A stretch of DNA of 34,224 bases. It comes from Chloroflexota bacterium. GTDB lineage: Bacteria > Chloroflexota > UBA11872 > VXOZ01. The number at the start of each line of letters is the position of its first letter. The stretch's first letter is position 1. Below the pieces are notes generated by a model. It saw only the letters and a program-made list of their open reading frames with translations. It searched no databases and had not been told where the DNA came from. The translations under genes were made by a program, and so were the position numbers. The stretch is from NCBI GenBank assembly GCA_028874195.1, contig JAPPLM010000070.1, positions 1-34,224 on the forward strand. Direction: 5' to 3'. Below are positions 3,624 to 34,224 of the stretch, one piece after another.

Positions 3624-3787
3624 TGGTGCGATGGCCGCTGCAGTGCTGACTTTGTGATGCTGCGACACTAGCGCGGGAGTAGCGCAAAAAAGATCGGGCG
3701 CGTGTGAGCCTGGAGTATGGCTGGAGCAAGGCGTCGCATGACCGGTGAGGTAATGAGTGGCGCCCAGAATCCGCGCTTTGTGCGGAA

Positions 3788-3813
3788 GCGGGGGACAAGC
3801 CCCCGCGCTACGG
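3788..3813. repeat. GC-rich dispersed hairpin repeat, copy 2
   Basis: This is an exact 26-nt copy of 84-109, with core GCGGGGGACAAGCCCCCGC and trailing GCTACGG. It lies about 85 nt before the amine-oxidase gene. The orientation is the same as copy 1. Confidence 0.8.
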
Positions 3814-13444: not shown

Positions 13445-15226
13445 CTAGAGCAGGTGAACGAGATCGCCGCGCACGAAGAAGTAAAAGTCCTGAGAGCCGA
13501 AACGGAATTCCTGCGAGTCGACGGGTTTCGGCATTTTGCGGCTCACCAGCCATGCCGTAAAGTTGCCGCGGGTCTGAGAATTGATCACAAAGTCGAGCAA
13601 GAATGAGGGACGCAGTTCTTTGTAGAGCGCTTCCGGGAACCACCACCGCAGTTTGTAGCGGAACGGCACATAGTTGCTGAGGTTTTCCCTTGCGTTTTCG
13701 ACCTCGCTGGCCGTGACGATCACAAAGGCCGCCTCGCCCGGATCGCCAATCTTGGATATGTAGCCGACTCTCGTGTAGTCGCGGAGATACCACGCGAACG
13801 GCCAGGAATCCTCATTGTCGATGAGGCCGACCAATTCCGTCTCGGTAGTTAGCTTGCGCGATATCTGCTCGATTTGTGCGACGACGTAGGGCACGTCCGG
13901 CGTTGTCTGCACGTAGACGAGCATGTCTTTTGGCGTGTCACCGTGCGCGTATGCCAGCGGCATAACGGTGTGCAGCGCATAGACGCCGATCAAGAGAAAG
14001 AGCGTCAGTGCAATGCGATGGCGGCGTAGACCATTCGGCTCAGCGAATTTCTGTCCCAGAAACCGCGATACCAGGAGAATGCCCGGCAGCGAGAGGTGGA
14101 GCACGAGCCAGGGCATGCGTTCACCGGCCAGGGAATACAGCACGACCGCGCCGACGAACCAGTAGCAGAGAAAGCGATCCGTCAGGCTGCCCCGCCGCGC
14201 GAGAAACCACAGCGCCGGCAGCACGAATACCGCCACAATGAGTTCGTAGAGCGGCAGCAGCATAAAGTAGTACCAGATCGGTTGATTGCCTCGGCCCACT
14301 TCCTGCTGGGCCAGCCAGTACTCCAGCGCCTTGACGACGCCGCTGGCGAAGTCTTGGGGATGGGTGTAGAAGGCGGTAAAGAAGGTCACGAAGACCAAGA
14401 GGAACGCCACTATGCCGGCAATGAGAAGCCGCCAATCGTTCCACAGATCGGCGAGCGCGCTCTTCACCGACTCATGGCTGGGCAGTCGTGCCGCCAGCCC
14501 TGGCGTGAATTGCTCCTGCAAGAACCGAATGATGATGAATGACCCCGCAATCGCCAAAGTGATGTAGGTATTCTCCTTGGTTGCCAGAGAGAGCGCGACG
14601 GCTATCGTGCCTATGTAGATGTACGCGCGCTGTCTTGTATGCAACCACCCAAAGAGCGCCAGCACGATGAGCATTGTCCACGCCACCACGTAGATGTCGT
14701 TGCGCGCGAACCGCGCGAAATAGAGCAGTGGCGGCGAAATGCCCATGAGAATGGCCGCCAACACCATGCCATTCCGCCCCAGGTAAGGCTTCAGGGGATA
14801 GACCAGTAGTACGGACACCACGCCGAACAGCGCCGGCCCAAAGCGCGCTACCTCGTCGCTGACGCCAAAGAGAAAGAACATGAATGCGGTGAAGTAGAAC
14901 TGGAACGGGCCGTGCAGCAGGGGATTGTAGCGATAGTCGAACGAACGGTAGATATCCCAGGCAAAGCGGGCATGCATGCTTTCGTCGTGGTGCAGCGCGC
15001 GCGTGCCCAGGTCCCAGAAACGTGTGAAGGCAACGAACGCGAGCACGGCGAGGAAGACAAGCAGTTGCCAGCGGGAGAGCCCGAAGGGTGTCTCGGCGCG
15101 CAACCAGGCAGCTATGGCCGGCCAATTGGCGGATACCGGCTCTTCCGGGGGTGGGGGTGTCCGGCGCGAGCGCGACTTCCTCGACCTGGGCTGCGCCGCG
15201 GGCGGGGCTGCTTTCTTAACTGGCAT
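13445..15226 (-). CDS. Membrane glycosyltransferase, TIGR03663 (Agl23-like) family
   Basis: This 593-aa polytopic protein is related to ArnT/PMT (GT-C) glycosyltransferases that use polyprenyl-phosphate sugars. After a cytosolic Lys/Arg/Pro-rich tail (1-33) come a first membrane helix (about 53-68) and the loop RALHHDESMHARFAW (76-90). Asp81-Glu82 is the acidic pair expected in the GT-C catalytic loop. About ten further helices follow, then a soluble C-terminal domain of about 150 aa. TIGR03663 proteins are typical of Chloroflexi and Archaea. Its start overlaps the stop of the DUF2298 gene by 11 nt, so both are one transcript and probably act together on envelope glycoconjugates. The acceptor is unknown. 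Confidence 0.88.
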   Translation of the reverse strand: MPVKKAAPPAAQPRSRKSRSRRTPPPPEEPVSANWPAIAAWLRAETPFGLSRWQLLVFLAVLAFVAFTRFWDLGTRALHHDESMHARFAWDIYRSFDYRYNPLLHGPFQFYFTAFMFFLFGVSDEVARFGPALFGVVSVLLVYPLKPYLGRNGMVLAAILMGISPPLLYFARFARNDIYVVAWTMLIVLALFGWLHTRQRAYIYIGTIAVALSLATKENTYITLAIAGSFIIIRFLQEQFTPGLAARLPSHESVKSALADLWNDWRLLIAGIVAFLLVFVTFFTAFYTHPQDFASGVVKALEYWLAQQEVGRGNQPIWYYFMLLPLYELIVAVFVLPALWFLARRGSLTDRFLCYWFVGAVVLYSLAGERMPWLVLHLSLPGILLVSRFLGQKFAEPNGLRRHRIALTLFLLIGVYALHTVMPLAYAHGDTPKDMLVYVQTTPDVPYVVAQIEQISRKLTTETELVGLIDNEDSWPFAWYLRDYTRVGYISKIGDPGEAAFVIVTASEVENARENLSNYVPFRYKLRWWFPEALYKELRPSFLLDFVINSQTRGNFTAWLVSRKMPKPVDSQEFRFGSQDFYFFVRGDLVHLL

Positions 15227-17606
15227 TGGCTTTCAACACGTATACGTTTCCGCTCTGAAATACGACAGGGAACCAGTCGAGGAGGTGGTCTACGTCCTGG
15301 CCGTAGAGCTGGCGTTCCCAGTCCCCTATGAAGATATAGTCAGCGTCATACTTGCGCAACAGGGCATTTGCGTCTTCTCGCCCCGCGTTCACGTAGAACT
15401 GCTGGAGGTCGTTTTCACGTTCAAGCACCAGCCTAAAGTCATTGCGCCAGAGCTGTTCGTGCTGGCGCCAGCCGAGTACCGTCTGCAGGCCCGTAAAGGC
15501 CGCTACCCGGCTATAGAGACTGTACTCCTGGCCTGAAGCCTCTACTACCACGCTATCCGACGCGGCGTTCTCCTGCAACCAGGCGATAGCGGCGACCTCG
15601 TCGGCATGGTCGCGGGCGTAGAACTTGGTGCCGTCCAGGGTCGGCGGCTCGCGCTGGAACGAGGCAAAGATGGGCGCGGTCAGAGCACTGTAATAGAAAC
15701 CGCTGAGCACGAGCAGAATGGTGATGACACGAAACACCCAGCTAAGCGGACGCTGCCTCTGCCGCAGCCAAATCCTCGCGTAGTAGATCGCGAAGGCCAT
15801 CACCGGCGCAAGGAGCGTCCAGATTTGGAAATACAGCTTGAAGACGGTGTTCATGCGCATATTTGGCGGGCCGTAGAAATCCTTTACATAAAATATCTCG
15901 CTGGCGAAGACGAGAAACGCCACCAAGCCCACGACACCGAGCACCAGCGGTAGCGGCTCGCTGTAGTCTCGCCGCCACAGCAGGATGCCAATGCCCACGA
16001 CGAGGCTTAGCGCGATGATTGCCAAGGCCGCAGTGTCAAAGAGCCGTGCGAGCAACAGCGTCACGACGACCCAACAAACGAGAATCCAAACCACGTAGAG
16101 CTGATAGGACTTCCGGCGTTCCTTGGATTCAGGTTCGGCGGTGGCGGGTTGGGCGGAACCTCCGTCCGCGCGGCGTTGTTGTCGCGCCTTGCGTCCCCGC
16201 GTTTGGCTCTGCGGCTCGGCTGTCTCCGGGACGACGTGGCGCAGCGAGGTCTGAATGCCGACTATCGTCAGGAGCACTCCCAACGGCACCAGGAAGATGC
16301 CGAACGCAGTGAAGAATTGGCCGAGATCCGTCCGGTAGGGCACCAGGCCGATACCCTGGGTGGGAGGATCGAATGTCAGATAGAACGGCGCGTAGAGCAG
16401 AAGAGCCAGCACGCCCGTAGCACCTAACCAAATGAGCGCGTCCTTCCACTGTTGCCACGTATCATGAACCCGAAGCGAGAGCAGCACAAATACCGTCAGC
16501 AGTATGAAGTACGTTGGAAAGTCCCATGAATTCAAGAAGTAGAGACCGCCGAAGATGACGGCGCTGAAGACGATACGACTGACTCTTGGGACGGTAAGTA
16601 TCGTCAAGATGGATTCCCGCTTTCGCGGGAATGACGGAGGTATGGGCGGGTAGTCAGGTTTCGCGTACCAGGTGAGGGCGGTGAAGATCGCCAACAGGGC
16701 AAAGGGCAGCGCCATGACGTGCGGGTGCATGTCGCCCAAGATGAAGCTAAAGGCGGGGAATTCATTAATTGTGTAATCGAGCAGCGTATCGCCTTCGACG
16801 CGTTGTATCACCCGTGTGGCGTTCCAGCCAACGCCGAACCAGAAACCCTGGCGCAGGATTTCGGGCTCGGTCAGGGCTTTCCAGATGGTAAAGAGGTTGC
16901 CGATGAAGAGGAGCAGGAACACGGCAAAGAGACCCGTGAGCGTTCCTCTGCGCGGCTCGACAATGCCGCCTGCGGCTTGGAAGCGCTTGACCAGGCTGTA
17001 GCCGATGCCGTAGGCTCCCAATCCACTCAGAGCGAAGAAGAGCGCCAGCGCCAGATTATACGTGATTCCTGAGGGAATTGTGGTGAGTCGTGTAAGAAAC
17101 GCCACCATCAGGTAGCCGAAATAGTAGTAGTTGATGGTGAGGCCCGCGGCCCAAGCGTCGTGGGGAGGCAGGGACGACGACTGGAGAATGCTATTCACCA
17201 TCATGAAGTCCATGAACTTCTCGGTGCCCATGAGTTCCGGCGCGTACTGGCGCAGCACCGCATAGGCGGTCAGTAGAACCAAGAAGAGGACTTCAACGAC
17301 ATAGATTTGATGCCCCACGGCTTCCCGTATGTCTTTCAAGCGCCAGCGAAAGTGCCGCACAGTGACCGCCGAGAGTGCGCCGAGGAGGATGAGCACGACA
17401 ATCAGTGCCCATAGGGTGTTCGGCAGTATCCGCAGGGACATCAGCAGCCAGCCGACGAAGCCAAAGAGCAGGATGCCGAACGTCTTGGCGAAAGGATACC
17501 CGGCCAAGGGCATATGCCGGAAGAGCAGCCAGGTCAGCGGGAGAGTCACGATGGTAATGGCTTGCACCGCAAGCCACCACAGCAGAATGTACCCTAAGGT
17601 TGTCAC
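15216..17606 (-). CDS. DUF2298 (TIGR03662) polytopic membrane protein
   Basis: This 796-aa protein is largely hydrophobic, with well over ten membrane helices, and matches the DUF2298/'Chlor_Arch_YYY' family by its loops MDFMMVNSILQSSSLPPHDAWAAG, TINYYYFGYLM, LGDMHPHVMALPF and FYGPPNMRMNTVFKLY. A soluble region starting KFYARDHADEVAAIAWLQ lies near the C-terminus. The family is thought to be GT-C-like; the reaction is unknown. Two departures stand out. SFPRKRES (about residues 324-331) is encoded by a dispersed hairpin repeat. A charged Arg/Gln/Glu-rich insert (about 457-502) interrupts the membrane region. It overlaps the TIGR03663 gene downstream, which fits their known pairing. Confidence 0.88.
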   Translation of the reverse strand: MTTLGYILLWWLAVQAITIVTLPLTWLLFRHMPLAGYPFAKTFGILLFGFVGWLLMSLRILPNTLWALIVVLILLGALSAVTVRHFRWRLKDIREAVGHQIYVVEVLFLVLLTAYAVLRQYAPELMGTEKFMDFMMVNSILQSSSLPPHDAWAAGLTINYYYFGYLMVAFLTRLTTIPSGITYNLALALFFALSGLGAYGIGYSLVKRFQAAGGIVEPRRGTLTGLFAVFLLLFIGNLFTIWKALTEPEILRQGFWFGVGWNATRVIQRVEGDTLLDYTINEFPAFSFILGDMHPHVMALPFALLAIFTALTWYAKPDYPPIPPSFPRKRESILTILTVPRVSRIVFSAVIFGGLYFLNSWDFPTYFILLTVFVLLSLRVHDTWQQWKDALIWLGATGVLALLLYAPFYLTFDPPTQGIGLVPYRTDLGQFFTAFGIFLVPLGVLLTIVGIQTSLRHVVPETAEPQSQTRGRKARQQRRADGGSAQPATAEPESKERRKSYQLYVVWILVCWVVVTLLLARLFDTAALAIIALSLVVGIGILLWRRDYSEPLPLVLGVVGLVAFLVFASEIFYVKDFYGPPNMRMNTVFKLYFQIWTLLAPVMAFAIYYARIWLRQRQRPLSWVFRVITILLVLSGFYYSALTAPIFASFQREPPTLDGTKFYARDHADEVAAIAWLQENAASDSVVVEASGQEYSLYSRVAAFTGLQTVLGWRQHEQLWRNDFRLVLERENDLQQFYVNAGREDANALLRKYDADYIFIGDWERQLYGQDVDHLLDWFPVVFQSGNVYVLKANAS
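16606..16637. repeat. 32-nt dispersed hairpin repeat inside the DUF2298 gene
   Basis: AAGATGGATTCCCGC, then TTTCGCGGGAATGACGG: the stem is ATTCCCGC...GCGGGAAT. The identical 32 nt occur at 23748-23779 in non-coding DNA, and a diverged, expanded form lies near 34089-34140. Read on the minus strand it encodes SFPRKRESIL in frame with the host gene. Confidence 0.9.
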
Positions 17607-18424: not shown

Positions 18425-18586
18425 GAACTCATCTCATAGATACATTGCACTGTGCAGACCTGCCCTTCGACCCTTCGGCAAGCTCAGGACAGGCAGGCTC
18501 AGGGCGAACGGAAACACTAATAACCCGTTCGTGCTGAGTGGGCTTCGCGAAGCCTGGGCTTCACCAAGCCCTTGTCGAAGCACGAA
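18425..18586. repeat. Dispersed repeat of about 160 bp, copy 1
   Basis: It begins GAACTCATCTCATAGATACA and passes through CCCTTCGAC, GGCTCAGGGCGAACGG and CGTTCGTGCTGAGTGGGCTT, ending TTGTCGAAGCACGAA. The same order of blocks is found at 20244-20365. Relative to copy 2 it has two small internal duplications (near 18470-18495 and 18550-18567). The inner part is the widespread repeat that encodes VRPEPVEG when read as protein. Confidence 0.85.
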
Positions 18587-20243: not shown

Positions 20244-20365
20244 GAACTCGTCTCATAAATACATTGCTCTGTGCATATCCGCCCTTCGACAGGCTCAGGG
20301 CGAACGGAAAGCGAACAATCCGTTCGTGCTGAGTGGGCTTCGCAAAGCCCTTGTCGAAGCACGAG
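20244..20365. repeat. Dispersed repeat of about 120 bp, copy 2
   Basis: It is in the same orientation as 18425-18586: GAACTCGTCTCATAAATACA, CCCTTCGACAGGCTCAGGGC, CGTTCGTGCTGAGTGGGCTT and TTGTCGAAGCACGAG. It is shorter because it lacks the two internal duplications of copy 1. A spurious frame across it reads VRPEPVEG, a signature of this repeat class. Confidence 0.85.
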
Positions 20366-23442: not shown

Positions 23443-23860
23443 CTAGTGGACGAGAAATCGGAATGTGTGGATATGGGATTGACCGTTTCGTTGTGTTGGC
23501 AGGCCTTTCATTCCGAACGGAGCACAGCGCCGTGTCGCTAAGAGCGCGGAATCTAGGTTCCTTAGCCAATCCAACTACGTGCAGCGCGGCCCTCAGATTC
23601 CTCGCATTCGCTCGGAATCTCAAGCGTTTGTGCGGGTTTCACTGTTGCTTTGCTCCTCGGAGTGACTGGAAAATCCCTTGACAAAGACAATACGTGCGCG
23701 TAAGATCACTCGCCATTCCGCGCGGAAGGACAATCCGGCGCAGCGTGAAGATGGATTCCCGCTTTCGCGGGAATGACGGAGTCCCTCATGCTATCTTCAT
23801 GGTAATGACGGCGAAATGTCAACACAACCTAGTGGACGGGAGATTCTGTCAACGAATTAG
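23443..23860. repeat. Composite dispersed repeat, copy 1
   Basis: Blocks shared in the same order with 33823-34217 are TCATTCCGA(A/G)CGGAGC, GGAATCTCAAGCGTTTGT, GCTTTGCTCC, TTGACAAAGACAATAC-like, GAAGATGGATTCC, GCGGGAATGACGG, and GGCGAAATGTCAACACAACC-like followed by TAG. The sequence between blocks is diverged. Near-identical 16-mers (CTAGTGGACGAGAAAT at 23443 and CTAGTGGACGGGAGAT at 23829) bound most of it as direct repeats. TCTGTCAACGAATTAG at its right end is the inverse of the right end of the other copy. Confidence 0.7.
23748..23779. repeat. 32-nt dispersed hairpin repeat, intergenic copy
   Basis: This is identical over 32 nt to 16606-16637, in the same window orientation, with stem ATTCCCGC/GCGGGAAT. 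It is embedded in the composite repeat 23443-23860. Confidence 0.9.
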
Positions 23861-33756: not shown

Positions 33757-34224
33757 GGGCCTACTTAGGCAGAGAAGCCTCACGGTGATGGCTGCCGGTC
33801 TGTCGATCCTGAGAGTACTAGGTAATTCGTTGGCCGACTGTCATTCCGAGCGGAGCGAGGAATCTAGGAACATAGTCTCTCGCACTATATTGGCCTTAGA
33901 CACTAGGTTCTGTGGACATTCAATGTCATTCCGAGCGCAAGCGTCGAACAGTGTTCGCGGAATCTCAAGCGTTTGTTCGGGATTCTCTCGCGCTTTGCTC
34001 CGCAAGGTGACAGTATGATCGATTGACAATGATAATACTTGCTTATTTGGCTCCTTACTACCTGGCGTAGCAACGCAGTCTGGGCCGCATGAAGATGGAT
34101 TCCGCGCCCCCGTGCGGGGGCGAGCTTGCGCGGGAATGACGGCAAAATGCCCACACAGCCTAGATTCCTCACTCCGCTGCGCTCCGTTCGGAATTGTAAG
34201 TGTTGACTAATTCGTTGACAGATT
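33757..34224. other. Right-edge spacer occupied by repeats
   Basis: No protein-like frame is present. Most of it is the second composite repeat. No clear intrinsic terminator for glyA was seen in the first 60 nt. Confidence 0.5.
33823..34217. repeat. Composite dispersed repeat, copy 2
   Basis: This shares ordered blocks with 23443-23860: TCATTCCGAGCGGAGC, GGAATCTCAAGCGTTTGT, GCTTTGCTCC, TTGACAATGATAATAC, GAAGATGGATTCC, GCGGGAATGACGG and GGCAAAATGCCCACACAG. The hairpin loop of the 32-nt repeat is expanded here by a second GC hairpin (CGCCCCCGTGCGGGGGCG). TAATTCGTTG occurs directly repeated at 33823 and 34208. The right end is inverted relative to that of copy 1 and may continue beyond the window. 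Confidence 0.7.

Follow-up and report, generated by a model that had tools for sequence, protein, structure and literature searches.

How does a short palindromic repeat that is scattered through a bacterial genome come to be read in frame as part of a membrane protein? The question is raised by a window of 34,224 nucleotides, the whole of contig C39 from the 3.5-Mb genome (81 contigs, 98.3% complete) of a Chloroflexota bacterium, referred to here as G000. This window contains a 32-nt core, CCGTCATTCCCGCGAAAGCGGGAATCCATCTT, in exactly two places, with its tag on the minus strand in both cases: once outside long open reading frames (ORFs) and once within a gene for a DUF2298 membrane protein (Table 1). 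The initial annotation interpreted the second copy as an in-frame insertion, and the identity of the two copies as evidence of recent mobility. Comparison with close relatives instead suggests that ordinary codons of equal length were turned into the repeat, with no insertion having taken place.

The CGTC-tagged repeat family

The descriptive claims of the initial annotation held up well. Both exact matches to the core were located, and with their flanks the two copies agree at 37 of 38 nt (16602-16639 versus 23744-23781). The gene copy leaves the frame unbroken and is read through as SFPRKRES, residues 325-332 of the DUF2298 protein. This peptide probably sits between predicted membrane helices, a placement drawn from hydropathy judged by eye and from a very weak AlphaFold2 model (five sequences, mean pLDDT 41.3) that is too poor for placing the loop. 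As had been claimed, the repeat is also dispersed: G000 holds 98 copies with no more than one mismatch to a common pattern, where 4e-9 perfect matches per genome at the 26 fixed positions would be expected by chance, and with up to three mismatches the count rises to as many as 192 (110 forward, 82 reverse), against 0 for a reversed control pattern in the same search. With the common pattern and threshold of one mismatch, the five further genomes of the genus in our comparison set (G001-G005) hold 37-64 copies, and 20 of 61 genomes hold any.

Table 1. Location of the repeat copies, the genes that hold them and the stretch compared between species
Feature	Location	Strand	Remarks
DUF2298 membrane protein gene	15216..17606	-	796 aa; PF10060, E 4.2e-114
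CGTC-tagged REP core within DUF2298 gene	16606..16637	-	32 nt; read as PSFPRKRESI
Stretch compared between species	16602..16639	-	38 nt; window-lineage changes at 16638, 16622, 16619, 16616
Identical core copy	23748..23779	-	Outside long ORFs; longest open frame across it 60 codons; possible donor
Variant copy	34084..34142	-	3' arm broken by GC-rich nested hairpin
uvrA, 2 copies	G000 C15:39602-40011 (L007)		PF17760, PF17755; orthologues L115, L108, L110, L118
moeA, 2 copies	G000 C60:117996-118303 (L081)		PF03453, PF00994, PF03454
Putative 4Fe-4S membrane protein ORF	C29:7872		Named by eye
Putative DNA methylase ORF	C22:43628		Named by eye; putative coding frame

A profile of 81 placed copies, picked at no more than one mismatch, resolves the repeat into a CGTC tag, a stem (ATTCCCGC/GCGGGAAT), a loop that is mostly GAAA (47/81) and a CCATCTT tail, with conservation dropping on either side of the 32 nt. 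The tag lies outside the stem, at one end, in all 81 copies; the 8-bp stem has complementary A/T at its first two positions and closes a 4-nt loop; and the CCA of the tail is present in 77 copies, the remaining four having T for the middle C. In tag, stem starting A and T, loop, CCA tail and high copy number, as well as in the presence of some in-gene copies, uvrA included, and in having no adjacent transposase that we could find, the repeat resembles the CGTC-1 REPs, a group to which Di Nocera et al. (2013, PMC3733652) assign Neisseria dRS3 and Rickettsia RPE-6. On these sequence features, we assign it to a dispersed family of CGTC-1 type. That study likewise mentions occasional CGTC repeats inside genes, among them uvrA, reports no dedicated transposase for CGTC REPs and leaves their route of multiplication open. 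The hosts named there are Proteobacteria, Chlorobi, Bacteroidetes, Spirochaetes and Thermotogae, whereas ours is a metagenome-assembled genome from the Chloroflexota, a phylum unlisted there.

Nine of the 81 placed copies fall in the interior of an ORF, meaning that the frame stays open for 100 aa or more to either side. Two were dropped on inspection by eye. The copy at C71:39414 is in an opposite-strand ORF that has a gene of the other strand on either side, and the one at C11:48937 precedes a signal-peptide-like start. Seven copies in five ORFs are thereby left. A Pfam search with the ORFs at C29:7872 and C22:43628 gave no family match. In uvrA, the linker that holds the repeats measures 158 aa in G000, 78 in G004, 60 in G001, 145 in G002 and 339 in G003. 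The corresponding moeA values are 137, 63, 123 and 111 aa in G000, G004, G001 and G002, with the G003 linker missed by the motif and also long in the alignment; those of the C29 ORF are 123, 141, 105, 75 and 154 aa in G000, G004, G001, G002 and G003. These are genuine in-frame length differences. The initial annotation also held that the DUF2298 peptide recurs in many unrelated proteins. Five of the six frames of the core are indeed open, but the verified in-gene copies of uvrA and moeA are read differently, as RHSRESG and VIPAKAGIH (the latter encoded in the moeA linkers), so that none of them repeats the DUF2298 peptide in a second verified gene. No paper was found that contains PRKRES.

Length and sequence of the DUF2298 site in related species

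Orthologues of DUF2298 were recovered from four genomes of the genus, with protein identities to the window of 92% (G004), 86% (G002), 79% (G001) and 76% (G003); G005, which is 69% complete, gave no match. The four relatives of the DUF2298 protein found in a named collection come from Chloroflexota/Chloroflexi metagenome-assembled genomes. All four genus orthologues align without a gap at the repeat site, where they read SFPREWKS, SFPPDWKS, SFVRNWRA and SFLRQWRS. Fixed motifs on either side are 32 aa apart in each of the five genus proteins, a wider loop between conserved motifs is 74 aa in all of them, and the nucleotide intervals around the site are 204/204, 208/208 and 243/243, with 201/198 by approximate mapping. 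This equality of length means that the window's lineage gained no residues, and consequently that the identity of the two repeat copies is no evidence of mobility.

Neither of the outcomes envisaged by the initial annotation is seen here. Residues around 320-336, predicted to be absent from relatives, are missing in none of the four orthologues; and the outcome that would have refuted it, an ancestral peptide shared by all homologues, does not occur either, since at this site the genus homologues have another peptide, equal in length. The exact peptide is, among the species compared, the window's only. What survives of the original interpretation is therefore a dispersed hairpin repeat, read in frame and giving a species-confined peptide; an insertion in the window's lineage does not. 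We regard a recent in-frame insertion into DUF2298 as highly improbable, despite the identical copies and the variable-length, REP-rich in-frame linkers of uvrA and moeA in the same genus, because besides the constant length, 29 of 38 nt across the supposed insert are common to the window and its nearest relative.

Base by base, the 38-nt stretch (in which position k corresponds to 16640-k) gives the direction of change. Its overall divergence is ordinary, with nine differences to G002 against 9.9 expected and nine to G004 against 5.3 expected (P 0.09). These two nearest relatives agree with one another at 29 of the 38 positions, and the window departs from them at four, where the gene's rate predicts 1.6, an excess that is not extreme taken alone. 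All four derived changes match the repeat consensus and three are non-synonymous. The three core changes (16622, 16619 and 16616) fall within 7 nt, at the first positions of consecutive codons, and convert GAG/GAT TGG AAG/AAA (Glu/Asp-Trp-Lys) into AAG CGG GAA (Lys-Arg-Glu). From the gene's own rates, the joint probability of these three as point mutations is about 1e-4, before requiring that nothing else changed.

It is possible that residues were gained longer ago, before the genus arose. Among 30 DUF2298 loci considered, one of which (L060) gave no loop, the wider loop of other families is mostly shorter, at 58-64 aa in 20 of 24 rows, so that the genus loop is 10-16 aa longer than these. 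An old in-frame REP insertion in the genus ancestor, kept intact in the window and decayed in the other species, would account for this difference. It would also account for loci L032 and L033, which still agree with it at 21 of the 26 fixed positions, improbable by chance, and there are intergenic precedents: several sites hold a copy at corresponding positions in two or more species, and some of these shared copies are near-perfect across species (e.g. C20:29420). We nonetheless judge it distinctly unlikely. The two nearest relatives have the same non-repeat base at all four positions, so retention of an old copy needs parallel changes, and the branch of G004 would have to bear all nine differences (2.8 expected, P 0.003). 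Furthermore, the Trp that is Arg in the window is found in all four genus orthologues and in the same column of 10 of the 24 other-family rows, and thus looks ancestral, while outside the genus the loop differs much in length (86-96 aa in the other four rows).

An artefact of assembly or read correction, in which part of the gene that nearly matched the repeat was overwritten by reads of this abundant element, is also improbable. The repeat is very abundant, the assembly comprises 81 contigs, and the relatives are without the repeat at this site, all of which such an error would fit. Against it, the frame and both flanks are intact, and several mismatches within one k-mer length would have needed joint correction, an argument from assembler behaviour. 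Many exact copies occur in the relatives too, including G001, assembled in nine contigs and holding 49 copies at no more than one mismatch.

Proposed conversion of a near-match in place

The reading that we favour, with moderate confidence, is that a near-match in DUF2298 underwent conversion in place, for which a different copy of the repeat served as template, perhaps aided by template switching at the hairpin. The chance expectation for perfect matches makes it most likely that the DUF2298 sequence was derived from the repeat, and gapless homology with the relatives indicates that the repeat did not arrive as extra sequence; both facts agree with a converted near-match. The starting point would be a resident coding stretch already similar to the repeat, which was then changed to the exact consensus without altering its length. 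Dozens of identical copies lie elsewhere in the genome, and one of them would most likely be the template, acting through short-tract ectopic gene conversion; the copy number in G000, above that of its five congeners, means that donors abound. Equal length in the relatives, the direction of the changes, the copy number and the absence of family copies near either of the two transposase ORFs found (see below) are observations; that the event was templated, that it was a single event and which copy was the donor are inferred. In contrast to perfect matches, near-matches on which conversion could act are expected by chance 0.06 times per genome at up to five mismatches, 0.6 times at up to six and 5 times at up to seven. 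Counting against conversion, those with five mismatches or fewer are themselves uncommon. The homology available beforehand would also have been short, with at most 15 nt of exact match when the better of G004 and G002 is taken at each site.

Template switching between the arms of an imperfect hairpin could yield two of the changes, those at 16619 and 16616, which restore pairing of the 3' arm. The window's copy is predicted to fold into a hairpin of -16.2 kcal/mol, which none of the four relatives forms. Loops that are inverted relative to the tag, the footprint that would be expected from template switching at such hairpins, occur in G000 (TTTC, GTGC and GTTC, once each among 71), in G002 (TTGC twice and TTTC once among 30) and in G004 (TTTC once among 27), which suggests that template switching, or some other inversion of the loop, occurs in the CGTC family. 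Quasi-palindrome correction of this kind is known from yeast coding DNA, and the cluster of non-synonymous changes by which the inverted repeat in DUF2298 became perfect resembles the multinucleotide mutations described in PMC8604942. As a complete explanation, however, with ordinary substitution supplying the rest and no donor copy, we think it unlikely. Copying of one arm onto the other fits two of the three core changes and leaves the loop change at 16622, and the change at 16638, unexplained. It also leaves unexplained the close match to consensus that tag, arm and tail must have had beforehand; unlike the mutations in that source, the DUF2298 product equals the genome-wide consensus in tag, loop and tail.

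The evidence for in-place conversion comes from one site among 30 compared. Of the 81 placed copies, 30 were covered by 57 pairwise comparisons, and DUF2298 alone showed equal length without a REP in the relatives; presence counts among the relatives' loci are inflated, as L167-L226 were chosen for holding the repeat. That CGTC REPs in general spread by overwriting near-matches through homology or hairpin templating, conserved codons included, rather than by transposition, with DUF2298 caught early in the process, is an extension that we put forward as doubtful.

Relation to known elements and other repeats of the genome

Palindromic elements of Rickettsia in protein-coding genes are described as insertions that add residues. 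Our repeat is similar in being a short palindrome read in frame in functionally unrelated genes, and the uvrA and moeA cases look like such insertions; the DUF2298 case differs in that it adds no residues and its protein is no longer than its orthologues. Higgins is said to have discussed in 1988 the evolution of REP sequences by gene conversion. Overall, this is a known kind of repeat family with one odd member, apparently arisen by sequence change and not by insertion. Intragenic REPs are already known, and what is new is the in-place route: the DUF2298 copy alters sequence at constant length, a difference from the CGTC-1 REPs described in PMC3733652. As a lead, from one site, to the way in which REPs that have no known transposase may spread, it has several implications. 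If conversion in place is correct, identity between copies does not testify to mobility, a protein can gain residues encoded by a repeat with no indel, and the loss of a conserved Trp can be a side effect. More generally, an in-frame repeat in a gene needs comparison with orthologues before it is labelled an insertion.

A Y1 transposase was considered as the agent for the CGTC family and dropped. A Y1_Tnp family search gave two matches in G000, and no CGTC copy with up to six mismatches lies within about 1.5 kb of either ORF; the family is, by this search, without a dedicated adjoining transposase. One of the G000 Y1 ORFs, C45:131036-131350, is flanked by oppositely oriented copies of a second, GTAG-tagged REP family (C45:130903-131570, L061), a layout termed REPtron in PMC3733652. 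The GTAG-tagged repeat (GTAGCGCGGGGGCTTGTCCCCCGCT) lies at 83-107 and 3787-3811 of the window and has up to 184 matches at no more than two mismatches.

Other repeat forms were also noted. A composite CGTC REP, as in the variant copy of Table 1, has 23 matches at up to three mismatches, and a few sites, such as C42:26064 and C26:34708, have the plain form in one species where another species has the composite. The window further contains two dispersed repeats, one of 36 nt (18519-18554 and 20314-20349, 92% identity) and one of 85 nt (23613-23697 and 33958-34042, 78% identity).
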